From Microvirga sp. VF16 (lineage in GTDB: Bacteria; Pseudomonadota; Alphaproteobacteria; Rhizobiales; Beijerinckiaceae), in assembly GCF_016864375.1 (NCBI RefSeq), contig NZ_CP069354.1, positions 5,105,501 to 5,169,500 of the forward strand: 64,000 nt of DNA, written 5' to 3'. The notes under the pieces are model-generated. The model was not told the DNA's origin, searched no databases, and saw nothing but the letters and a program-made list of their open reading frames with translations. The first letter of the stretch is position 1; each line of letters opens with the position of its first letter. The position numbers and the translations under genes were made by a program. Shown here in pieces: positions 15,077 through 29,351 of the stretch.

Positions 15077-15832
15077 TTAGGCGCGGATGCGCCGCTTGAT
15101 GAGCGCAGAACCCGGCACAAGGTCCATGTCCCTCTGGTTTGTAAGCGCTCTTTCCAGATTGCGGTGGGCAATGCGCGCATGCTCCCGCATGATCGCTTCG
15201 GCCCGGCTCCCCTCCCGCCGTTCGATGGCGGTCAGGACGCAGCGATGCTGATCCTGGGCGACGGTCAGGATATGATGCAGCTCCGGCGAGCGGGACTGAA
15301 CGGGAACCAAGGCGCTTGCCGAAGCAAAAGGCAGAGCGCTCGCCCGTTCGAGCTGACGCGCCAAAGGCGGACTGTCGGCCATGTCGATCAGAATTCCGTG
15401 GAACCGGGCATTCAGTTCGACATATTGCGAGAGGTCGATCTCAGGCAGGTCCCGGCGGATGACGTCATCGATCTCATCGAGACATTCGGCAGCCGTGAGA
15501 AGCGCAGAGCGGCTGGCGCCATGCTCGGCGGCAAGGCGCGCGGCCAGGCCCTCGAGAGTTCCGCGAATTTCGATGGAGACGAAGACTTCCTTCTCGGAAA
15601 AAGCCTTCACGGCAAATCCACCGGACGGGATCGCCTCCAGCAAACCCTCTTCCTCAAGCCGGACGAGAGCCATGCGAACCGGGGTTCGTGACACACCGAG
15701 CCGCTCGACCATCTGCAGTTCGGAAACCCGCTCGCCAGGGTTCAACGCCCCTCGCAGCACTAGCTCGCGCAGGGCAAGCTGCGCCTTTACGGTCTGCGAG
15801 AGCGAGCGGTCACTGGCTTTGTCCATGGTCAT
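15077..15832 (-). CDS. GntR family (FCD/FadR-type) transcriptional regulator
   Basis: A 251-residue regulator. The winged helix (residues 12-75, with ERLGVSRTPVRMALVRLEEEGLL) is followed by an FCD ligand-binding domain (EIRGTLEGLAARLAAEH). The start ATG (15832) overlaps the reductase stop as TGATG, so translation is coupled; an alternative ATG lies at 15826. VanR-type regulators of this family repress vanillate demethylase genes, so it probably controls the operon it sits in, through the CTGTATACAG palindrome at 17919-17928. Confidence 0.9.
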   Translation of the reverse strand: MTMDKASDRSLSQTVKAQLALRELVLRGALNPGERVSELQMVERLGVSRTPVRMALVRLEEEGLLEAIPSGGFAVKAFSEKEVFVSIEIRGTLEGLAARLAAEHGASRSALLTAAECLDEIDDVIRRDLPEIDLSQYVELNARFHGILIDMADSPPLARQLERASALPFASASALVPVQSRSPELHHILTVAQDQHRCVLTAIERREGSRAEAIMREHARIAHRNLERALTNQRDMDLVPGSALIKRRIRA

Positions 15833-16806
15833 CAAGCCGCCCTGTCTGCTGTGTCGATGGTGATGCTGCCGCCTGCGACCCGCGAGACGCAGGTGCAGAG
15901 TTTGGCATTGGCCGCCTTTTCCTCGTCGTTGAAGAACACGTCGCGGTGGTCGACGATGCCGTCCACCTCCAGGATATACAGCGCGCACAACCCGCACTCG
16001 CCGCGCCTGCAGTCGGAGATCATGGCGACGCCGGCAGTCTCCAGGGCATCGAGCATGGTCTGGTTCTGCGGAACGTCGACCACGAGATTGAGGCGGGGGA
16101 TGTTGACCTTGAAGGGTTGGGAGGCAAACCGCCCACTGTTGCCAAAGGTCTCGAACCGCAATTGCTCGACCGGGCGACCGCTCTGCTGCCAGGCCCGCTT
16201 GGCCGCCTCCAGCATGCCGATGGGACCACAGACATAAAGCTCGCCGCCCGGCGCCAGCCGAGCGATCTCGGAAGCGAGGTTCACCCTGTCCCCGTCCTCG
16301 TCGAGGAACATCTGCAACCGGCCGCCGATGCGCTCCCGCAACTCGTCGGCAAGAGCGGCATCCTCTCTACGGCGACAGGCATAGAGCACCCGGAAATCGG
16401 CATTGATGTCAGCGAGAGCCAAAGCCATGGTGAAGATCGGCGTGATGCCGATGCCCCCGGCGAGCAGGAGATATTCCGGCCGGCCCCGGCCGAGATCGAA
16501 GTGATTGCCCGGAGTCGAGATGGTGAGCTGAGCTCCGGGTTTCAGGCTCCACATATAGGCGGAGCCGCCGCGGGTATCGCCGAGGAGTTTCACGGCGATC
16601 CGGTAGATGCCGTCCGCGCAGGGACCGACGATCGAATAGGAACGCACGTCCGGCCGTTCGCCGATCTGCACTGTCACGTTGATATGACTGCCGGGCTTCG
16701 GGATGACGAAGTCTCCCGAAGGTTCGATCTCGAAGAGCCGGGTGTCGGGAGAAAGATCCCGCGTCCGGATCAGCTTCGCGGCCCGCCAGTCGAGTTGCTC
16801 AGCCAT
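15832..16806 (-). CDS. Rieske oxygenase reductase, PDR/VanB type (FMN/NAD and 2Fe-2S)
   Basis: A 324-residue electron-transfer protein. The N-terminal flavin domain has RSYSIVGP; the NAD domain has LLAGGIGITPI and FRVLYACRR. A C-terminal plant-type ferredoxin has CRRGECGLC and a distant LCTCVS, giving the four cysteine ligands. This order (flavin, NAD, ferredoxin) is that of phthalate dioxygenase reductase and VanB. It lies 8 bases after the Rieske oxygenase gene and should supply it with electrons from NAD(P)H. Confidence 0.9.
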   Translation of the reverse strand: MAEQLDWRAAKLIRTRDLSPDTRLFEIEPSGDFVIPKPGSHINVTVQIGERPDVRSYSIVGPCADGIYRIAVKLLGDTRGGSAYMWSLKPGAQLTISTPGNHFDLGRGRPEYLLLAGGIGITPIFTMALALADINADFRVLYACRRREDAALADELRERIGGRLQMFLDEDGDRVNLASEIARLAPGGELYVCGPIGMLEAAKRAWQQSGRPVEQLRFETFGNSGRFASQPFKVNIPRLNLVVDVPQNQTMLDALETAGVAMISDCRRGECGLCALYILEVDGIVDHRDVFFNDEEKAANAKLCTCVSRVAGGSITIDTADRAA

Positions 16807-16814
16807 CGGCAGAC

Positions 16815-17897
16815 CTACTCGGCCGCCTGGTTTGGAACGTGGGGCTGCGGGCCGTATTCATCGTCCAGCATCCCGTCGATCAGCTTGCGCGCCCAGAGGG
16901 CGCCGGCATCGATGTTGAGATTGTAGAAAGGCATCCGCGGATTTCTATCGATCGCGATCTGCTGCGCTTCGAGTACCGTGTGGTCCTGATCGTAGACACC
17001 CTTGCCCTCATTGACGTGGGCCTTGTTGATGTCTCGCGTGAGCTGCTCGTCGTCCTTCCGAAAGGTTCTGACGAAGTTCCAGAAATAGTGGCAGGTCCTG
17101 TCCGTCACGGGCGTGATGGCAGCCAGGAAGGCACCATTGACGCCCTGCGAACGGTTGCCTTGAGGAGCGCCGGTTCCTGTCACGGCAACACCCACATCGC
17201 CGACGATGGTGGACGGGGCCTGGAAATAGATGATCTGCCACCGGTCCACATGTTCGCCGGGCCTGTTGAGCTGCTTGGCCCAGAAAGGCGGCGGCTCGAT
17301 ATTGATCATCCAGCGCGTCACGGTCGCGGTGCGATCCGTGTGCGTGACGTCGAAGGGTGCGCTGGTGATCGCCTCATCGCCAATGCTGCCTGCATGAACG
17401 TAGGTCTCGTGCGTCAGGTCCATGAGATTGTCGATGACGAGACGGTAATCGCATTTCAGGCTGTAGAAAGTGCCGCCCTCGCCCACCCAGTCAGTGCCGT
17501 CGTTCCAATGGAAATCCGGAATTTTCGCCGGATCCGCGAGCGCTGGATCACCGGGCCAGAGCCAAACGAGACGATGACGCTCGGCGACAGGATAGGAGCG
17601 GACGCAAGCCGACGGATTGATGGTCTTCTGCGCCGGCATGTAGGTGCATCGACCGGCCGAATTGAAGACGAGCCCGTGATAGCCGCAGATCACCTGGTCG
17701 CCCTCGAGACGCCCCATGGAAAGCGGCAGCAGCCGATGCCAGCAAGCATCTTCCAGTGCAGTGACCTGGCCATCCGTGCGACGATAGAGAACGACGTCCT
17801 TATTGCAGATGGTCCGGGCTGCGAGCTCATGCCTGATCTCATGGCTCCAGGCCGCGGCATACCAAGCGTTGAGAGGAAAGGCTTTGGCGTGCGTCAT
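16815..17897 (-). CDS. Rieske non-heme iron oxygenase, vanillate O-demethylase-like
   Basis: A 360-residue oxygenase alpha subunit. The Rieske 2Fe-2S ligands are C52-x-H54 and C71-xx-H74 (ACWHRLLPLSMG, CGYHGLVF). The mononuclear iron site has H163 and H168 within DNLMDLTHETYVHAG, with the bridging Asp at 156 or 160. The N-terminus FPLNAWYAAAWSHEI is characteristic of the VanA/toluenesulfonate group. It probably hydroxylates or O-demethylates a methoxylated aromatic acid, releasing formaldehyde. First gene of a ten-gene operon, preceded by a GntR-type palindrome. VanA identity is likely but substrate could differ (syringate, 3-O-methylgallate). Confidence 0.88.
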   Translation of the reverse strand: MTHAKAFPLNAWYAAAWSHEIRHELAARTICNKDVVLYRRTDGQVTALEDACWHRLLPLSMGRLEGDQVICGYHGLVFNSAGRCTYMPAQKTINPSACVRSYPVAERHRLVWLWPGDPALADPAKIPDFHWNDGTDWVGEGGTFYSLKCDYRLVIDNLMDLTHETYVHAGSIGDEAITSAPFDVTHTDRTATVTRWMINIEPPPFWAKQLNRPGEHVDRWQIIYFQAPSTIVGDVGVAVTGTGAPQGNRSQGVNGAFLAAITPVTDRTCHYFWNFVRTFRKDDEQLTRDINKAHVNEGKGVYDQDHTVLEAQQIAIDRNPRMPFYNLNIDAGALWARKLIDGMLDDEYGPQPHVPNQAAE

Positions 17898-20393: not shown

Positions 20394-20750
20394 TTATCGA
20401 TGTGCAGATGTCGGCAGCATGGTTTCTTCTGTCCTCTCACGCGTCATGGGATCGATCCGATGTGCCTGGAATCGTGACGCCAAGGCTGTGATCTCGATCG
20501 ACTCGACGAGGCCCGCAAGCGCGAACGGATCTGTCTCCGCAAAGGCTTGAGCGGCCTCGCGGGACGGCGCCTCCAGCACGCCGAAATTGCCGATCGGCGT
20601 CTCGCCGTCGTCCTCTGTCAGGGCGCTTCCGATCAACACCTTGGCAAGCCCGCCTCCACCCGTGGCAACGTGCTGGCGATGCGCGTCCCGATGCTGCTCC
20701 CGCAGGCCTGTCGCATCGCTCCGATGGCGGCAGATCATGAGCCAGTACAT
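20394..20750 (-). CDS. YciI-like ferredoxin-fold protein
   Basis: A 118-residue protein of the YciI-like dimeric alpha/beta barrel type: MYWLMICRHRSDATGLREQHRDAHRQH at the start and GNFGVLEAPSREAAQAFAETDPFALAGL in the second half, including the conserved DPF. Members are found in aromatic pathways but most have no assigned reaction. It starts five bases after the LigB stop. A possible role is isomerisation or lactone handling of a ring-cleavage product. GTG at 20780, inside ligB, is an alternative start. Confidence 0.75.
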   Translation of the reverse strand: MYWLMICRHRSDATGLREQHRDAHRQHVATGGGGLAKVLIGSALTEDDGETPIGNFGVLEAPSREAAQAFAETDPFALAGLVESIEITALASRFQAHRIDPMTRERTEETMLPTSAHR

Positions 20751-20754
20751 GGCG

Positions 20755-21621
20755 TCACGCGGCTTGAGCCGGGGCAGCACTCGCCCGGTTTTCCATGACG
20801 ATCATGCCGGCTCCGGTCATGGACGCCGGCACGAAGTAGTGCTTGTGCCGGACCACCACGTCGTGATCCATGGCGCCGCGCATGACGAGCCACATCATGA
20901 GTTCCGCCCCCTCGCTGCCGAACATCTCGACATACTGCTCGCGCGACATGTTCGCGAGCTTGTCGGGATCATTGGCGATATCGCTCAGGAAGGCTTGGTC
21001 GGCTTCGGGATTGACGAAGCCGGCGCGGGCGCCCTGGAGCTGGTGGGAGAGCCCGCCGGTTCCGAGAATGACGAAGCGCTCGTCACTGTCGTAGCTCTCG
21101 ATGGCCTGGCGCAGAACGCGGCCCATCTCGTAGCAGCGGCTTGGAAGCGGGATCGGATACTGGATGACATTGACGAAGATCGGGACGACCCTCACCGGCC
21201 ATTCCTCGGGCTTGCCCCAGAACAGCTCCATCGGCACCTGCAGCCCATGATCGACCTCGATCTCCTGGCAGATCATCGGGTCGAAGCGGTTCTCGACGAG
21301 TGTGTCGATGAAGTGCCACGAGAAATCGACGGCCCCCTTGAAGGGAGCGATGGCGCGCGGTCCCCACCCCTCGTCAACCGGGCGATATTCCTCCGCGCAA
21401 CCCACGGCGAAGGTCGGCACCTTGTCGAGGAAGAAGGTGTTGCCGTGATCATTGAAGATCACGACGGCCACGTCGGGCTTGTTCTCTCTCACCCATTTCT
21501 GACCGGGGATGTAGCCGTCGAAGAATGGTTTCCAGTCCGGCGTATCCCGCAACCCCTTGTCGAGTGCCGCACCGATCGAGGGAACATGAGACGTTCCGAG
21601 TCCTCCGATGAGCCTTGCCAT
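20755..21621 (-). CDS. ligB: Type II extradiol dioxygenase, LigB-like beta subunit
   Basis: A 288-residue catalytic subunit of the protocatechuate 4,5-dioxygenase family. H12 (GTSHVP) and H59 (FNDHGN) match the Fe(II)-binding histidines of the LigB fold; the mid-protein HGLQVPMELFWG is also typical. Length fits LigB (about 300). It starts three bases after the LigA-containing gene, as expected for an alpha-beta pair. Protocatechuate, gallate or 3-O-methylgallate are all possible substrates; no LigC gene is seen, which favours gallate or 3-O-methylgallate. Confidence 0.88.
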   Translation of the reverse strand: MARLIGGLGTSHVPSIGAALDKGLRDTPDWKPFFDGYIPGQKWVRENKPDVAVVIFNDHGNTFFLDKVPTFAVGCAEEYRPVDEGWGPRAIAPFKGAVDFSWHFIDTLVENRFDPMICQEIEVDHGLQVPMELFWGKPEEWPVRVVPIFVNVIQYPIPLPSRCYEMGRVLRQAIESYDSDERFVILGTGGLSHQLQGARAGFVNPEADQAFLSDIANDPDKLANMSREQYVEMFGSEGAELMMWLVMRGAMDHDVVVRHKHYFVPASMTGAGMIVMENRASAAPAQAA

Positions 21622-21623
21622 TC

Positions 21624-22718
21624 TTATTTCTTCCCTAAACGATCCCGCAGGAAATCCGCGTGCTCCATTCCCGCCTGGTGCGCGCCGATCTCCGTGATGC
21701 GCACGGGATCGACAGCCGAGATCTTGAGAATGAAGAACAGGTTTCCACCCAGCCGCACCATCTCGCGCCAGTTGCGGGTCATCACCGCGTCCTTCTCCTC
21801 GGACGTCAGACCGAAGCGGTCGAGATAGGCACTCTCGTTCTCCCGGAACGCTTCCCGATTGGCGGGATTGCTGAGCCCCATCGCCATCTTGTTGATGCGG
21901 TATCCGCGAAGTGACCGCTTGCGGTCGAACAGCGGTGTGTCCGGGATACGATCCCCGTTCTCAGCCATCGGTTTCGCCTCCCTACCCGCGGCGCGGTTGG
22001 CGCTCGCATTCTCATTCGTGAATCCAAGGAAGCGAAGCAGCGCCTCGGACACCTGATCGGGTTGCTCCAGCAGAGACATGTGGCCACTATCCTCGATCAC
22101 GACGAGTTCGGCACCTGGGATCAGGGACGCCATCTCCTCATGCTGAGCCAGCGGACTCCAACGATCCTGACGGCCGACCATCACCAGGGTCGGACAGGCG
22201 ATGCTCGGAAGATGCGGCCGCACATTCGGCCGATTGAGAAGTGCCTGGATCTGGCGGTCATGCTGCTCGGGCGTGGCGCGCATGACCATCGCCTTGAGCG
22301 GGGCAAGGAGGGTTCGATCCCCAATCCTGTCCTCGTGAACCATCGGCGGCAGCCATCTGTCGGCCAGGGCTCCCATACCCTCGGCAAAAGCCAGATCGAT
22401 CATGGCCTGGCGCTTCGCCTCCTCCCCCTCCCGCCGAGCATCGACGCCCGTGTCGATCAGGGCAAGCTTCTCGATGCGCTCGGGAGCCAGGCGGACCATC
22501 TCCATGGCCACGCGGGCCCCCATGGAATGCCCGATTGCGATCAGAGGCCCATCAGCAAGTGCCAGCGCGGAACGGGCCATGGCCTCGATGGAATCGAGCT
22601 GAGAGAAATCCGCGATGCGGATGTCGGCATGGGGCTCGAGTGCTGCCCTCTGCGCCTCCCAGATGCTGGCGTCGCAGAGGAGCCCCGGCAACAACACGAC
22701 GGTCGGCCTTTCGCTCAT
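21624..22718 (-). CDS. Alpha/beta hydrolase fused to LigA (4,5-dioxygenase alpha subunit)
   Basis: A 364-residue two-domain protein. Residues 1-235 are an alpha/beta hydrolase: VVLLPGLLCDASIW, nucleophile elbow IGHSMGAR, acid loop VGRQDRW, and a histidine in EDSGHMSLLEQPD. Residues 251-364 are a complete LigA (PLFDRKRSLRGYRINKMAMG ... NWREMVRLGGNLFFILK). An internal ATG at 21968, preceded by AGGGAGG eight bases upstream, would make LigA alone (114 residues). ATG 22718 was chosen as start; an ATG at 22814 would lie inside the LysR-type operator. First gene of its operon, followed by ligB. The hydrolase substrate is unknown; an aromatic ester or ring-cleavage product fits. Confidence 0.85.
   Translation of the reverse strand: MSERPTVVLLPGLLCDASIWEAQRAALEPHADIRIADFSQLDSIEAMARSALALADGPLIAIGHSMGARVAMEMVRLAPERIEKLALIDTGVDARREGEEAKRQAMIDLAFAEGMGALADRWLPPMVHEDRIGDRTLLAPLKAMVMRATPEQHDRQIQALLNRPNVRPHLPSIACPTLVMVGRQDRWSPLAQHEEMASLIPGAELVVIEDSGHMSLLEQPDQVSEALLRFLGFTNENASANRAAGREAKPMAENGDRIPDTPLFDRKRSLRGYRINKMAMGLSNPANREAFRENESAYLDRFGLTSEEKDAVMTRNWREMVRLGGNLFFILKISAVDPVRITEIGAHQAGMEHADFLRDRLGKK
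21966..21983 (-). promoter_or_regulatory. Internal ribosome binding site and start for LigA domain
   Basis: On the minus strand AGGGAGG (21977-21983) lies eight bases before an in-frame ATG (21966-21968) at the domain junction. A TAG triplet in the +1 frame overlaps the ribosome site, as if a separate hydrolase gene once ended here. LigA may be made both fused and free. Confidence 0.6.
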
Positions 22719-23860: not shown

Positions 23861-24739
23861 TCAATCCGCAAAGCGGAACAGGCGCGCTGGGTTTTCGACG
23901 AGAAGTTTGTGCTGAACGGCCGGATCCGGCGCGTAGAGCGGGATGAGATCGACCAAGTCGCCGTCATCGGGCATGACCGGCACGTTCGGGTGCGGCCAGT
24001 CCGTTCCCCAGAGGACGCGATCCGGCGCCGCATCGATCAGCGCCTTGCCGAAGGGAGCAACATCGTGGAAGGGCGGCCCAGCGCGTGAGATACGCTCGGG
24101 GCACGTGACCTTGACCCAGCACTTCTCGTCGCTCTGCACCAGATCCAGCAGCGCCACGAAGGCAGGCTGATCGAGGCCGAGACTCGCATCGACGACGCCC
24201 ATGTGGTCGAGCACGTAAGGAACGGGCAATGCCGTCAGTCTGGACCTGAAGTCAGGGAGCAAGGTTGCAGGAAGATAGAGATCAACATGCCAGTCGAGAG
24301 CGGCGATGCGTTCCACGATCCTGTCGAAGGAAGACATGTCGGGCATCCTGCCGAGACGCGGCAGGAAGGTGAAGCGGCATCCGGTGATGCCCGCGTCGGC
24401 AAGGCGCCGGAGATCCCGGTCGCTGAATGTCTCGTCCACGTTCGCGACGCCCTTATAACGCCCGTTGCTCTGGGCGATCGCATCGGTCACCACGCGGTTG
24501 TCGCGTCCGTGGGGCGTCGCGTTGACGATGACAGCCCGCTCGACACCGAGACGATCATGCAGCGCGCGGAACATCTCCAGCGGCGCATCCGGCGGCGTGT
24601 AGGGCCGCTCCGGCACATAGGGATAGCGATCGTTCGGCCCGAAGATGTGACAATGCGTGTCACACGTCTTCGGCGGCAGCTTGAAGGACGGGACGTGCGG
24701 ATTGGGATGCGGAGGCGGGATCATCGGCGCTGACGTCAT
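23861..24739 (-). CDS. ligI: 2-pyrone-4,6-dicarboxylate lactonase LigI
   Basis: A 292-residue amidohydrolase-fold enzyme that hydrolyses 2-pyrone-4,6-dicarboxylate (PDC) to 4-oxalomesaconate. CDTHCHIFGPNDRYPYVPERPYTPPDAPLEMF is the LigI/barbiturase-like N-terminus with the HxH motif; HMGVVDASLG and LWGTDWPHPN (the conserved Asp-x-x-His region) follow. ATG 24739 was chosen; earlier frames lie in the operator. It shares a divergent promoter region with the LysR gene and carries LysR-type element B. Its presence means the pathway passes through PDC. Confidence 0.87.
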   Translation of the reverse strand: MTSAPMIPPPHPNPHVPSFKLPPKTCDTHCHIFGPNDRYPYVPERPYTPPDAPLEMFRALHDRLGVERAVIVNATPHGRDNRVVTDAIAQSNGRYKGVANVDETFSDRDLRRLADAGITGCRFTFLPRLGRMPDMSSFDRIVERIAALDWHVDLYLPATLLPDFRSRLTALPVPYVLDHMGVVDASLGLDQPAFVALLDLVQSDEKCWVKVTCPERISRAGPPFHDVAPFGKALIDAAPDRVLWGTDWPHPNVPVMPDDGDLVDLIPLYAPDPAVQHKLLVENPARLFRFAD

Positions 24740-24799
24740 GCGAATGAGCTGACCTTCATGAAGCGGTTTTGGCGGCCCATGAAATGCTTCAGCGTTAAA

Positions 24800-24890: not shown

Positions 24891-25853
24891 ATGCGCATCG
24901 ACTTTCTCGGTCTCCATGCCTTCGTCGCCATTGCCGAGCGCGGCAGCTTCCAGCACGCAGCGGCGCATCTCAACCTGTCCCAGACGGCTCTCAGCCACCG
25001 GATTCGCAAGCTCGAGGAGGACCTTGGCGTGAAGCTTCTGTCGCGGACCACCCGCGAGGTCTCGCTCACCCAAGCCGGCCTCAATCTTCTGCCCAAGGTG
25101 AAGGAAACCATCGAAAGCCTTGCCGGCTCCCTGGACGAACTCCGCCAGGAGGGGCGCAGCCGCCAGGAAACCCTGTCGATCGGATGCCTTCCCACCATCG
25201 CGTCCGGCCGGCTGCCCACGGCGTTGCGCCATTTCCAGGAGCGGCACCCGGATGTGGTGCTGCGGATCTACGACAACTCGGCGACCGAGATCAGCAACCT
25301 GGTTCAGGACGGCACGATTGCGTTCGGCATCACTCTCGTGGCTGCACACCGGTGGGATTTCGACATCGAGATGCTGATCAAGGACCCGTTCACGCTCGTC
25401 TGTCCCGAGGATCACCCCCTGGCGGTGCAATCGGATGTGAGCTGGTCCGATCTCGCGGAAGAGCCGCTGATCAGGATCAGTCCTCAGACGGGAAACAGAA
25501 TCATCATCGATGACGCGTTGGGCAGCCGCCGGGAGGCCCTGAGCTGGCGCTTCGAGGTCCAGCATATTCAGACGGCGGTCGCTCTCGTCCGAGCGGGGGT
25601 CGCCATAACGGTCATTCCCAGTCTCGCCTTCGACACGGTGGACGAGCGTGGCCTCAAGCTGATCCCCTTGCGCAATCCGAGCGTCACCCGCCAGCTCGGC
25701 ATCATCTCGAAGCGAGGCACACCGCTGTCTCCCCTCGCGGACGAGCTGCGTAAGCATATCGTGCAGACATTTGCCGAACCTAAGCAGAAGCCGTCGGCAG
25801 GACGGACCGCCAAACCACGCAGCAGGATGAAAAAAATTCATCAAAGCCCATAA
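24891..25853 (+). CDS. LysR family regulator of the 4,5-cleavage genes
   Basis: A 320-residue LysR-type regulator. The N-terminal HTH is FVAIAERGSFQHAAAHLNLSQTALSHRIRKLE, followed by GVKLLSRTTREVSLTQAG. The effector domain starts TLSIGCLPTIASGRLPTALR. It diverges from ligI and is followed by the tautomerase operon, with conserved elements in front of each. The probable inducer is a pathway substrate or intermediate such as PDC, gallate or protocatechuate. The C-terminal 20 residues are lysine/arginine-rich and its stop codon lies inside element C. Confidence 0.92.
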   Translation: MRIDFLGLHAFVAIAERGSFQHAAAHLNLSQTALSHRIRKLEEDLGVKLLSRTTREVSLTQAGLNLLPKVKETIESLAGSLDELRQEGRSRQETLSIGCLPTIASGRLPTALRHFQERHPDVVLRIYDNSATEISNLVQDGTIAFGITLVAAHRWDFDIEMLIKDPFTLVCPEDHPLAVQSDVSWSDLAEEPLIRISPQTGNRIIIDDALGSRREALSWRFEVQHIQTAVALVRAGVAITVIPSLAFDTVDERGLKLIPLRNPSVTRQLGIISKRGTPLSPLADELRKHIVQTFAEPKQKPSAGRTAKPRSRMKKIHQSP

Positions 25854-25948: not shown

Positions 25949-27037
25949 ATGATCCTTCGCGGCGGCACCTCCAAGGGCGCCTATTTCCTGGCCGACGATC
26001 TTCCGTCCGATCCGGCGCAGCGCGACGCGCTTCTGCTGTCGATCATGGGATCGCCGGACCCGCGCCAGATCGACGGCATCGGCGGCGCTCATCCGCTCAC
26101 GAGCAAGATCGCCATCGTATCCAGGTCGAAGCGTCCGGATTGCGATGTGGATTTTCTGTTCGGCCAGGTGGTTGTCGACAAGCCCAAGGTGGACGTCACG
26201 CCCAATTGCGGCAACATCCTTGCCGGCATTGGGCCGTTTGCCATCGAGCGCGGTCTTGTTCCCGTGCAAGGCACCGTAACGCGAGTTCGCGTCCACACGG
26301 TGAATACGGGGACGATTGCGGAGCTGAGCGTCCAGACCCCTGACGGTCATGTGGCCTATGGCGGCCATGCGCGCATCGATGGCGTGCCGGGAACCGCCTC
26401 ACCGATTGCCGTCGAATTTCTCGATGCCGCCGGCTCCGTCTGCGGCTCGCTGCTGCCGACAGGAAATGTTGTCGATCGCGTCGCCGGGGTCGACGCAACC
26501 TTGATCGACAACGGCATGCCGGTGGTGCTGCTCGAAGCCGCAGCCGTCGGCCGGACCGGATACGAGCCTCGCGATGTGCTCGACAAGGATGTGGAACTGA
26601 GGACGCGTCTTGAGGAAATCCGCCTTGAGGCAGGCAGGCTCATGGGGCTCAGCGACGTCTCGTCCAAGGTCGTGCCCAAGATGGCGCTGGTCGCGCCACC
26701 GGCTGCGGGCGGACATGTCTGCACGCGCAGCTTCATTCCCCACGAATGCCACGCCTCCATCGGCGTTTTTGCGGCCGTGACGGTCGCCACCGCCTGCGTG
26801 CTGCCCGGATCTCCTGCGGCCCGTGTCGCCAGGATTCCGCCCGGACGCGAGAAGACGCTCTCGGTCGAGCATCCGACCGGCGAGTTCAGCGTGGTGATCG
26901 AAGTCGGCGGAACCAAGGAGAGTCCCGTCGTGGAAAAGGCGGGCCTGCTGCGGACGGCGCGCCTGCTCTTCGAGGGCTATGCTTTCGCGCACGATGCCCT
27001 GGCGCATTCGCTCGAGGCTGGCCGCGACGCCGCCTGA
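25949..27037 (+). CDS. galD: 4-oxalomesaconate tautomerase (PrpF family, GalD/LigU)
   Basis: A 362-residue PrpF-family isomerase converting the keto/enol or double-bond isomers of 4-oxalomesaconate. Strong landmarks are MILRGGTSKGAYFLADDLP, IDGIGGAHPLTSKIAIVSRS and TPNCGNILAGIGPFAIERG, all diagnostic of the 4-oxalomesaconate branch. The ATG at 25949 is in the middle of a conserved start: the codons before it read IQPRIPC, as in homologs, but no ATG, GTG or TTG occurs in frame upstream. GGGAG precedes an in-frame ATT at 25928, which may be the real start. First gene of the operon with the hydratase and aldolase. Confidence 0.9.
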   Translation: MILRGGTSKGAYFLADDLPSDPAQRDALLLSIMGSPDPRQIDGIGGAHPLTSKIAIVSRSKRPDCDVDFLFGQVVVDKPKVDVTPNCGNILAGIGPFAIERGLVPVQGTVTRVRVHTVNTGTIAELSVQTPDGHVAYGGHARIDGVPGTASPIAVEFLDAAGSVCGSLLPTGNVVDRVAGVDATLIDNGMPVVLLEAAAVGRTGYEPRDVLDKDVELRTRLEEIRLEAGRLMGLSDVSSKVVPKMALVAPPAAGGHVCTRSFIPHECHASIGVFAAVTVATACVLPGSPAARVARIPPGREKTLSVEHPTGEFSVVIEVGGTKESPVVEKAGLLRTARLLFEGYAFAHDALAHSLEAGRDAA

Positions 27038-27066: not shown

Positions 27067-27789
27067 ATGAGTACTGGAAAGACCGGACTTGTCGTCACCG
27101 CCCATCCCGGTGACTTCGTATGGCGCGCAGGCGGCGCCATCGCCCTGCATGCGAAGAAGGGCTATCGCATGAAGATCGCCTGCCTCTCCTTCGGCGAACG
27201 CGGCGAGAGCCAATGGGCCTGGAAGAAGGGCGACGTGTCGCTTGCCGACGTGAAGGCACAGCGCCGCGAAGAAGCCGAGCGCGCCGCAGAGACCCTTGGG
27301 GCCGAGATCGAGTTCTTCGATGCGGGCGATTACCCGCTCCATACGACTCCTGAAATGCTCGACCGTCTCGTCGACATCTACCGCGAGCTCAAGCCCTCCT
27401 TCGTGCTCACGCACTCCCTGGAGGATCCCTACAACGTCGATCACCCGGAGGCGACGCGCTTTGCGCAGGAAGCCCGCATCATCGCGCAGGCCGCCGGCCA
27501 CAAGCCGAATCCCGATCTCACCTACAATGCACCGCCGGTCTTCCTGTTCGAGCCGCACCAGCCCGAGCAGTGCAACTACAAGCCCAATGTGATCCTGAAC
27601 ATCGACGACGTGTGGGATACGAAGCGCAAGGCCTTCGAGATCCTGGCGGCCCAGAAGCACCTGTGGGAATACTACACCCGGGTGGCCCTGAACCGCGGCA
27701 TGCAGGGTGGCCGCAATTCTGGTCGCGCCATGACCTATGGCGAAGCCTATCAGCGCATCTTCCCCCAGATCGTCGAGGAACTGGCATGA
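27067..27789 (+). CDS. galB: 4-oxalomesaconate hydratase (PIG-L family, GalB-like)
   Basis: A 240-residue zinc-dependent PIG-L-fold protein. [21 protein letters not shown] carries the N-terminal metal-site His and Asp; [16 protein letters not shown] supplies the second His. Extended likeness to GalB ([34 protein letters not shown]) rather than to deacetylases supports hydration of 4-oxalomesaconate to 4-carboxy-4-hydroxy-2-oxoadipate (CHA). ATG 27067 with TTGAGGA upstream; the stop overlaps the aldolase start (ATGA). Confidence 0.87.
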
Positions 27790-28478
27790 AACCCGTCGTC
27801 GTCACCAACACGCCGCGCATCGATCAGTCGGTGATCGACCGCTTCGCGGAACTCGGCACCGCAACGACCCATGAGGCCATGGGGCGCGTCGGTCTCATGA
27901 AGCCTTACATGCGGCCGATCTGGGCGGGAGCGCAGGTGGCGGGCAGCGCCGTGACAGTGCTGGCTCAGCCGGGCGACAACTGGATGATCCACGTGGCCGT
28001 CGAGCAGTGCAAGCCCGGCGACATTCTGGTTGTCGGCGTGACCACCGACAATACGGACGGCATGTTCGGCGATCTCCTGGCCACGTCGCTTAAGGCACGC
28101 GGCGTGGTCGGTCTCGTCATCGATGCCGGCGTCCGTGATGTGAAGACCCTGACCGAGATGGGCTTTCCCGTCTGGTCGCGCGCCGTTTCGGCAAAGGGCA
28201 CGGTGAAGGCGACCCTCGGATCGGTCAACGTTCCTGTCGTCTGCGCAGGCGCTCTGGTGAAGCCCGGCGATGTGATCGTTGCCGATGACGACGGTGTCGT
28301 GGTGGTGCCGCGCAAGGAGGCCGAGGCCGTTGCGGCCGCGGGCGAGGCCCGCGTTGCCAATGAAGGATCGAAGCGCGAGACTCTCGCCTCGGGCGTTCTC
28401 GGCCTCGACCTCTACAAAATGCGCGAGCCGCTCGCGAAGGCGGGTCTCACTTACGTCGAATACAAGGATGAGGACTGA
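27786..28478 (+). CDS. galC: CHA / HMG aldolase (RraA family, GalC/LigK)
   Basis: A 230-residue RraA-fold class II aldolase. Motifs include [40 protein letters not shown] and [22 protein letters not shown], where the last holds the conserved arginine and metal-binding Asp. It cleaves 4-carboxy-4-hydroxy-2-oxoadipate to pyruvate and oxaloacetate, the last step of the pathway. The four-base ATGA overlap with the hydratase indicates translational coupling. Confidence 0.9.
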
Positions 28479-28514: not shown

Positions 28515-29351
28515 ATGAGTCTTGAGATCGCCTTCATCGGCTATGGAGAAGTCGGGCAACTCTTCTCCCGTCAGCTTGCGACCCGACCGGATGTGAGGAT
28601 CACGGTCTATGACATCCTCTTCGACGATGCTCTGAAAGGATCGGAGCTGCGGCAACGGGCGTCGGAAGCCGGAGTTCACGCCGCCGACAGCGCCGCCGAT
28701 GCCTGTCGGAAAGCCGATATCGTAATCTCCGCCGTCACGGCGGATTCCGCCGTCACGGCGGCGCGGCAGGCTGCTCTCCATCTTCACGCTTCGCAGATCT
28801 ATATCGACCTCAACTCCGTCTCTCCTGCGACCAAGGAGCGGGTGGCCGAAGCTGTTCGTGAGAAGGGCGCGGACTTTGTCGAATTTGCCGTGATGGCTCC
28901 TGTGAGCGGCCCCGGGATTGAGGTTCCGATCCTGAGCGGCGGCAAGCGCGCAGAGGAGGTCTCGGCGCGGCTTAACGGGCTCGGCATGAAAATCACGCCG
29001 GTCAGTTCCGAGATCGGCACGGCATCCGCCACCAAGTTGTGCCGAAGCATCGTCATCAAGGGCATGGAAGCCCTGATGGTCGACTTCACCCTGGCTTCGG
29101 AGAAAGCGGGCGTCATGCCGGCCGTTCTGGAAAGCCTGAAAGCCTCCTATCCCGGCATGGATTGGGAGAGTGTCGCGAAGGTCATGATGTCACGCGTCCG
29201 GCAGCACGGCATCCGACGCGCTGCGGAAATGCGCGAAGCCAGCCGCATGATCGATGAACTGGGCCTGGACGGTTCGCTCGCGAAGGCCATCGCCGAGCGC
29301 CACGAGAGCTTCGCCAAAGCGAGTGTCCGAGTGCGCCCTCAAACGGAGTGA
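28515..29351 (+). CDS. NAD(P)-dependent oxidoreductase with DUF1932 domain
   Basis: A 278-residue protein with an N-terminal Rossmann fold of the 6-phosphogluconate dehydrogenase group (IAFIGYGEVGQLFSRQL) and a C-terminal helical DUF1932 domain (ATKLCRSIVIKGMEALMVDF). It also has VEFAVMAPVSGPG, matching the family's substrate loop. It follows the aldolase by 36 bases in the same operon. A role as an oxidoreductase in this pathway is plausible, for instance replacing the absent LigC (CHMS dehydrogenase), but that is inference only. Confidence 0.82.
   Translation: MSLEIAFIGYGEVGQLFSRQLATRPDVRITVYDILFDDALKGSELRQRASEAGVHAADSAADACRKADIVISAVTADSAVTAARQAALHLHASQIYIDLNSVSPATKERVAEAVREKGADFVEFAVMAPVSGPGIEVPILSGGKRAEEVSARLNGLGMKITPVSSEIGTASATKLCRSIVIKGMEALMVDFTLASEKAGVMPAVLESLKASYPGMDWESVAKVMMSRVRQHGIRRAAEMREASRMIDELGLDGSLAKAIAERHESFAKASVRVRPQTE

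Follow-up and report, generated by a model that had tools for sequence, protein, structure and literature searches.

The window, a 64,000-nucleotide stretch of the genome of Microvirga sp. VF16, carries on its minus strand a gene in which an alpha/beta hydrolase is joined to the dioxygenase subunit LigA; the separate gene for LigB starts 2 nt downstream (21621). The frame from 22718 to 21624 comprises 364 codons without an internal stop, and the host genome contains a single full-length copy of the fusion. Pfam places Abhydrolase_6 at residues 34-226 and LigA (PF07746) at residues 275-358, the latter with 93.9 bits against a cut-off of 25.3. The catalytic residues Ser65, Asp185, and His213 are identical wherever an aligned row has letters (53, 52, and 52 of 53 rows, respectively), and the triad is intact in all 17 fused genes of the alignment. 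The open frame, both Pfam domains and the intact catalytic residues confirm the sequence-only reading of this DNA, which had described a complete serine hydrolase and a complete LigA in one frame. The features of the locus are collected in Table 1.

Table 1. Positions of the fusion gene, its parts and the neighbouring genes in the window
Feature	Position	Strand	Remarks
Hydrolase-LigA fusion gene	21624..22718	minus	364 aa, one open frame; full-length relatives known
Alpha/beta hydrolase domain, residues 1-232 (complete; ~5-231)	22023..22718	minus	Pfam; catalytic Ser65, Asp185, His213
Linker, residues 237-263	21930..22010	minus	predicted disordered; pLDDT <50 at 237-259 and 261-263
AGGGAGG, internal Shine-Dalgarno site	21977..21983	minus	-11.6 kcal/mol; counterpart of the ligA site in split relatives
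LigA frame from internal ATG, 114 aa	21624..21968	minus	PF07746
LigB, catalytic dioxygenase subunit	20755..21621	minus	PF02900; 1b4u_B, E 2.1e-88
YciI-like protein, fourth gene of the conserved core	20394..20750	minus	PF03795; first start at 20780
Rieske oxygenase, VanA type, probable O-demethylase	16815..17897	minus	PF19112 VanA_C, PF00355; best PDB match DdmC
Reductase partner, VanB type	15832..16806	minus	FAD_binding_6, NAD_binding_1, Fer2
2-Pyrone-4,6-dicarboxylate (PDC) hydrolase, LigI family	23861..24742	minus	PF04909; 4d8l, E 5.6e-71
LysR-type regulator, divergent	24891..25853	plus	LysR models matched, none over cut-off
4-Oxalomesaconate tautomerase (GalD)	25949..27037	plus	NF033377, 531.8 bits (above cut-off 440)
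PIG-L family, probable GalB hydratase	27067..27789	plus	PF02585; role by family and position
RraA-like, probable CHA aldolase (GalC/LigK kind)	27780..28478	plus	PF03737; role by family and position

An AlphaFold2 model of the fusion (31 sequences) has a mean pLDDT of 88.6 and a pTM of 0.65 and consists of two folded domains, with pLDDT mostly above 90 in the hydrolase domain. Searching with the whole model, Foldseek returned hydrolases only among the 50 matches listed and is therefore uninformative on the LigA domain.

At the junction, AGGGAGG (21983-21977) is followed by the 8-nt spacer CGAAACCG and an in-frame ATG (21968-21966), and an out-of-frame TAG (21984-21982) overlaps the motif. These elements, already pointed out in the sequence-only reading, were read directly in the junction sequence. 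Pairing energies were calculated with an anti-Shine-Dalgarno tail whose sequence we assumed. A site as strong as that of the window precedes only 0.23% of 1,329 internal in-frame ATGs, which were taken from 185 long, mechanically picked ORFs in 400 kb of the same genome. The gene probably yields both the fusion (~364 aa) and a free LigA of 114 aa. In relatives with two genes, the counterpart of the internal site is the start signal of the free-standing ligA, so that the presence of the site alone is no sign of a special dual-output design.

Among the open-licence PMC papers listed by our searches we found no published report of a hydrolase-LigA fusion, in line with the earlier claim that it is not among the known forms of LigA. 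The gallate dioxygenases GalA and DesB (3wku) likewise contain a LigA domain within a fused protein, but there it stands behind LigB, whereas in the window it stands behind the hydrolase and LigB is separate.

Distribution and origin of the fusion

Scans of one genome per species and of 248 genomes of the family yielded, together with one locus from a class scan (L096), 53 distinct loci with adjacent hydrolase and ligA, window included. Five further records (L001, L013, L014, L015, and L020) have the same junction letters as the window, L046, L048, L057, and L065; they were taken as copies and dropped from the tree and the counts. The order hydrolase-ligA-ligB occurs in 52 loci other than that of the window, across the Alphaproteobacteria, and yciI usually comes next. 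In 17 of the 53 loci no stop separates the hydrolase from ligA, while the others have two adjacent genes, which mostly differ in frame and either are set apart by a short gap or overlap slightly. In L045 and L096 hydrolase and LigA share one frame with a single stop between them, one substitution away from the fused form.

The fused genes are found in Microvirga (the window and L040-L044), in two further members of the same family (L011, L012), in an Alsobacter MAG (L046), in Prosthecomicrobium (L047), in Ciceribacter (L056), and in six Rhodobacter-type genomes named as MAGs (L059-L064). The 16 other Microvirga loci in the tree comprise five fused and 11 split ones. The database search for the same two-domain order that the sequence-only reading had proposed thus finds it in close relatives as well as in other genera, and separate genes are not the state of all close relatives. 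In an even sample of the class (385 genomes) an uninterrupted full-length match was obtained only from the window's own genome; across the class the fusion is rare.

On an unrooted tree built from hydrolase, LigA, and LigB the fused state requires at least five changes (six if L069 is counted as split), of which strongly supported branches force at least four, and it is clustered, as none of 500 shuffles gave so low a number. Gains and losses are indistinguishable on an unrooted tree; the distribution indicates either repeated joining of a neighbouring hydrolase gene and ligA or repeated loss of the fused state. L069, a Tabrizicola MAG from the fused Rhodobacter-type clade, has a hydrolase whose frame is broken, by decay or assembly error; only the 105 residues ahead of the break entered the tree, where the locus is labelled split and lies outside the count of five changes. 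The six fused Microvirga loci form one clade (support 100/99), in which the window and L041 are 95% identical over 621 columns.

The junction ATG is kept in nine of the 17 fused genes. In all six fused Microvirga loci it is present with a site of -8.0 to -15.1 kcal/mol, among the strongest 3.3% of the 1,329 internal ATGs and comparable with the ligA sites of split Microvirga (-6.1 to -15.1 kcal/mol). For the other genes with a junction ATG the values are -14.9 (L012), -6.4 (L046), and only -4.7 kcal/mol (L011). No junction ATG is present in L047, L056, and L059-L064. In these genes the first in-frame ATG beyond the junction falls on LigA residue 21-23 and is preceded by a weak ribosome site (-1.5 to -4.1 kcal/mol), and GTG and TTG codons near the junction, which score -7.0 at best, may give rise to minor free LigA. 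With no ATG at the junction of these eight genes, the Rhodobacter-type, Ciceribacter, and Prosthecomicrobium genomes probably have the fusion as their working and only LigA.

The fusion in Microvirga could be a near-neutral read-through brought about by a change of frame, with free LigA made from the internal site doing the work of the dioxygenase and the hydrolase carrying a harmless C-terminal tail. This would fit the junction ATG with its strong site in six of six fused Microvirga, the disordered linker, which is variable in sequence and length, and the 11 split Microvirga loci, which keep the same gene set. However, the six loci of the fused clade retain the fusion although their linkers have diverged, no stop having appeared in them, and the eight fused genes that lack the junction ATG offer only the weak start inside LigA. 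We consider a near-neutral read-through somewhat unlikely.

In the split loci L049 and L050 the hydrolase stops at a TGA that follows the ligA ribosome site and precedes the ATG of ligA. Compared with these two loci, the fused Microvirga genes are 2 nt shorter immediately ahead of this ribosome site. The reading frame of the hydrolase therefore runs past the TGA and continues in that of ligA; in L040-L043 the TGA is still visible out of frame. Most simply, the Microvirga fusion would have originated from a split ancestor by this 2-nt change, a direction that we infer.

An error of sequencing or assembly that joined two separate genes would take one indel, 11 of the 16 other Microvirga loci are split and the host assembly (9.95 Mb) is flagged as 17% contaminated, but the same in-frame fusion recurs, with linkers that have diverged, in other genera and in five further named records of Microvirga. 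This leaves the explanation a negligible chance and rules out a sequencing artefact; the finding is unaffected by the contamination flag.

Gene context and the reaction of the hydrolase

The neighbourhood of the fusion comprises genes for O-demethylation, PDC hydrolysis and the gal steps (Table 1). The best PDB match of the VanA-type oxygenase is the dicamba O-demethylase DdmC (E 8.6e-54). O-Demethylase genes were counted in 51 loci of at least 8 kb, namely 42 pair loci and nine plasmid loci chosen by their hydrolase. Of these, 17 contain a VanA-type gene and 17 a LigM-type gene; one has both, 33 have either, and 18 have neither. For the 42 pair loci alone the numbers are 14 (VanA-type), 13 (LigM-type), and 27 (either). 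Among the 18 loci with neither are eight Neorhizobium/Rhizobium-type ones from a single clade, others that are too short to extend as far as such a gene, and the plasmid loci L115, L117, and L120. The same core is consequently found with O-demethylases of two unrelated kinds. The LigM-type genes of L061 and L119 match the "Vanillate/3-O-methylgallate O-demethylase" structures 5tl4/5x1i with E values of 1e-159 to 1e-161, and in L061 a distance of 18 nt separates the end of the gene from the fusion frame. For the LigM-type gene ahead of the fusion in the Rhodobacter-type loci, the E value of this match is 3e-159. As in operons of LigM-type 3-O-methylgallate (3MGA)/vanillate O-demethylases, the fusion follows just after a LigM-type gene in six Rhodobacter-type loci, whereas Microvirga has a VanA-type gene instead.

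Relatives of the hydrolase (41-57% identical) are encoded on Sphingobium, Novosphingobium, and Roseomonas plasmids, next to LigAB and/or VanA- or LigM-type O-demethylases, folate genes, and SnoaL_4 genes. The exception is L117, with a 47% identical hydrolase and no LigAB or demethylase nearby. Next to the cluster, Microvirga, Roseomonas (41% identical), and Mesorhizobium all have a NAD_binding_2/DUF1932 dehydrogenase (28515-29351 in the window).

A precedent for this gene set is Pseudomonas sp. NGC7. According to the part of the report available to us (PMC12314914), syringate is converted there by VanA1B1, MgaAB, MgaC, and MgaD to OMA, which is followed by GalD, GalB, and GalC; MgaAB is LigAB-like, MgaC is an alpha/beta hydrolase, and MgaD belongs to the SnoaL family. 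CHMOD cyclises to PDC with a half-life of ~70 min, and an mgaC deletion gave PDC from syringate at 95% mol/mol (PMC12314914). Compared by kind only, the window shares with NGC7 the VanAB-type demethylase, the LigAB-like dioxygenase, the alpha/beta hydrolase, and GalD/GalB/GalC. In the available text mgaC (PSN_2689) and mgaA (PSN_2693) are separate and non-adjacent, whereas the window has the MgaA and MgaC kinds in one protein; furthermore, MgaD is of SnoaL type, whereas the window cluster has the YciI gene instead. In Novosphingobium aromaticivorans, as described in the accessible parts of PMC8091115 and PMC6888825, DesC and DesD lead from CHMOD to OMA by demethylation and isomerisation. The hydrolase of the window would act at the DesC step, but DesC and DesD are encoded by separate genes (Saro_2864 and Saro_2865). 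MgaC and DesC are given as only 13% identical to each other (PMC12314914).

We looked for a SnoaL gene in the window cluster and found none. YciI is present in 41 of 58 loci longer than 9 kb, and in the window as well, SnoaL_4 in five of the 58, all of them sphingomonad plasmids, and the two never occur together. As they exclude each other and SnoaL is the family of MgaD, YciI is a candidate for the CHMA tautomerase and may serve as such in clusters of this type.

The gene context points to catabolism of syringate and 3MGA. Because every NGC7 enzyme kind apart from SnoaL is present in the window cluster, the following route can be proposed. The VanA/B-type demethylase would convert syringate to 3MGA. 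The LigA domain together with the separate LigB would then open the ring of 3MGA, giving the methyl ester CHMOD, and the attached hydrolase domain would remove the methyl ester before CHMOD cyclises to PDC. GalD, GalB, and GalC would complete the route, and the LigI-type enzyme could rescue PDC.

Both PF07746 (LigA) and PF02900 (LigB) are matched over their cut-offs, which makes the pair a class III extradiol dioxygenase of the LigAB kind. His12, His59, and His193 of LigB are found in 53 of 53 rows and Glu240 in 52, with one gap; we take these residues to be metal ligands and the catalytic His. Protocatechuate 4,5-dioxygenase LigAB (1b4u) thus shares the two subunit families and the conserved metal/base residues with the window. 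In contrast to it, the LigA of the window has an N-terminal hydrolase and Ile in place of Phe103, and scores of 75.2 (TIGR02792, cut-off 108.6) and 82.5 (NF009918, cut-off 161) leave it under the NCBIfam models for the protocatechuate dioxygenase alpha subunit. A plain protocatechuate dioxygenase was rejected on these scores, yet the related LigBA of pPDL2, next to a hydrolase 52% identical to that of the window, cleaved protocatechuate, catechol, and benzenetriol according to the part of PMC3516476 at hand.

In the LigA of strain SYK-6, position 103 governs C5 selectivity, and some F103 substitutions speed 3MGA cleavage (available part of PMC10094722). The corresponding residue is Ile in 44 of the 53 pair loci, Met in eight, and Val in one; the LigA of the window, with Ile, lacks the Phe of the SYK-6 type. 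Of 22 control LigAs, taken from 289 genomes that sample the class evenly, five have Phe; all five are 55-92% identical to SYK-6 LigA, and none lies beside this hydrolase. As 13 of 18 controls with no adjoining hydrolase also lack Phe, the residue fits the 3MGA reading but is a weak argument and no proof. In the actinobacterial loci L081, L084, L086, and L087 LigA and LigB are 77-83% identical to those of the window, a LigM-type gene stands directly before ligA, and no hydrolase was seen; a transfer between phyla is probable for these two genes.

The hydrolase has what is expected of an enzyme of the MgaC/DesC kind, namely an alpha/beta hydrolase fold with intact Ser-Asp-His triad and, in the window, an accompanying set of O-demethylase, LigAB-type dioxygenase, and gal genes. 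Its likeliest reaction, by analogy, is the MgaC/DesC step, removal of the methyl ester from CHMOD after ring opening. Membership in the meta-cleavage C-C hydrolases and in PcaD was rejected, as the scores are far under the cut-offs (27.8 bits against 462 for the BphD-type model TIGR03343; for PcaD see below).

Alternatively, the hydrolase could act before the dioxygenase and free a catecholic acid from an ester or a feruloyl-type conjugate. Esterase folds rank high among the Foldseek matches listed (4uhc esterase and 7dq9 feruloyl esterase, besides the PcaD enol-lactonase 2xua), but fold matches do not tell substrates apart, MgaC is a direct precedent for the CHMOD step, and the relatives of the hydrolase lie beside O-demethylase, LigAB, and SnoaL_4 genes, as this step would lead one to expect. 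Action before ring opening is hence improbable. The sequence-only reading had suggested that substrate release is coupled to ring opening; gene context and the MgaC precedent, as far as PMC12314914 was available, indicate that the order is probably reversed and that the hydrolase works after ring opening on the methyl-ester product.

We regard a PcaD-like lactonase acting on PDC or another lactone as more improbable still. PcaDC (102.5 bits) and PcaD (87.3 bits) are the best NCBIfam matches and 2xua is a top fold, but the scores are far under the cut-offs of 390 and 255.85, a LigI-type PDC hydrolase is already in the cluster, and no beta-ketoadipate genes were seen among the genes scanned. In the PcaDC/PcaCD fusions (NF051488, NF051487) an alpha/beta hydrolase is likewise joined to a pathway neighbour; unlike the window, they belong to a different ring-cleavage pathway and have a different partner.

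Returning to hydrolysis of CHMOD, we conclude, with a probability of roughly 60%, that the fusion joins the enzymes of two successive steps of syringate catabolism, at its CHMOD branch.

Consequences of joining hydrolase and LigA

An esterase placed on LigA, the subunit that lids the active site of the dioxygenase, might lead from 3MGA to the dicarboxylate with no release of CHMOD. The PDC hydrolase would then be dispensable in genomes that have only the fusion, the internal ribosome site would set the esterase-bearing share where the junction start is kept, and the arrangement would have evolved repeatedly. We consider this proposal doubtful. With a half-life of ~70 min, CHMOD hardly requires channelling on kinetic grounds, and the PDC hydrolase of the window cluster also counts against such a need.

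The LigI-type PDC hydrolase was counted in 35 of the 43 non-window loci that have the adjacent pair and come from the one-genome-per-species scan. With the threshold fixed in advance (E<=1e-25), none of the eight genomes lacking the junction ATG has the gene, versus 19 of 27 others; at E<=1e-60, a cut-off picked after seeing the data, the figures are 0/8 versus 18/27 (Fisher p 0.001). The fused Microvirga keep it in five of five cases. The link is weak: the eight genomes represent three lineages only, with six MAGs from a single clade, and the LigI-type gene is also missing from several genomes of the split form. The absence of LigI would weakly fit a fusion that stands in for PDC rescue.

The hydrolase-LigA gene is an example of recurrent gene fusion, and it provides new alphaproteobacterial candidates for the 3MGA ring-cleavage route, including Microvirga, for which our literature search listed no work on syringate. 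Catabolism of syringyl lignin branches at CHMOD between hydrolysis and cyclisation to PDC, in which industry is interested as a building block for polymers, as set out in the available parts of PMC12314914 and PMC12481942. A natural fusion at this branch, with fused and split forms within one genus, would offer a clean test of its effect on the branch ratio and would allow one to test whether an unstable ring-cleavage product is handed over directly from the dioxygenase to the esterase.
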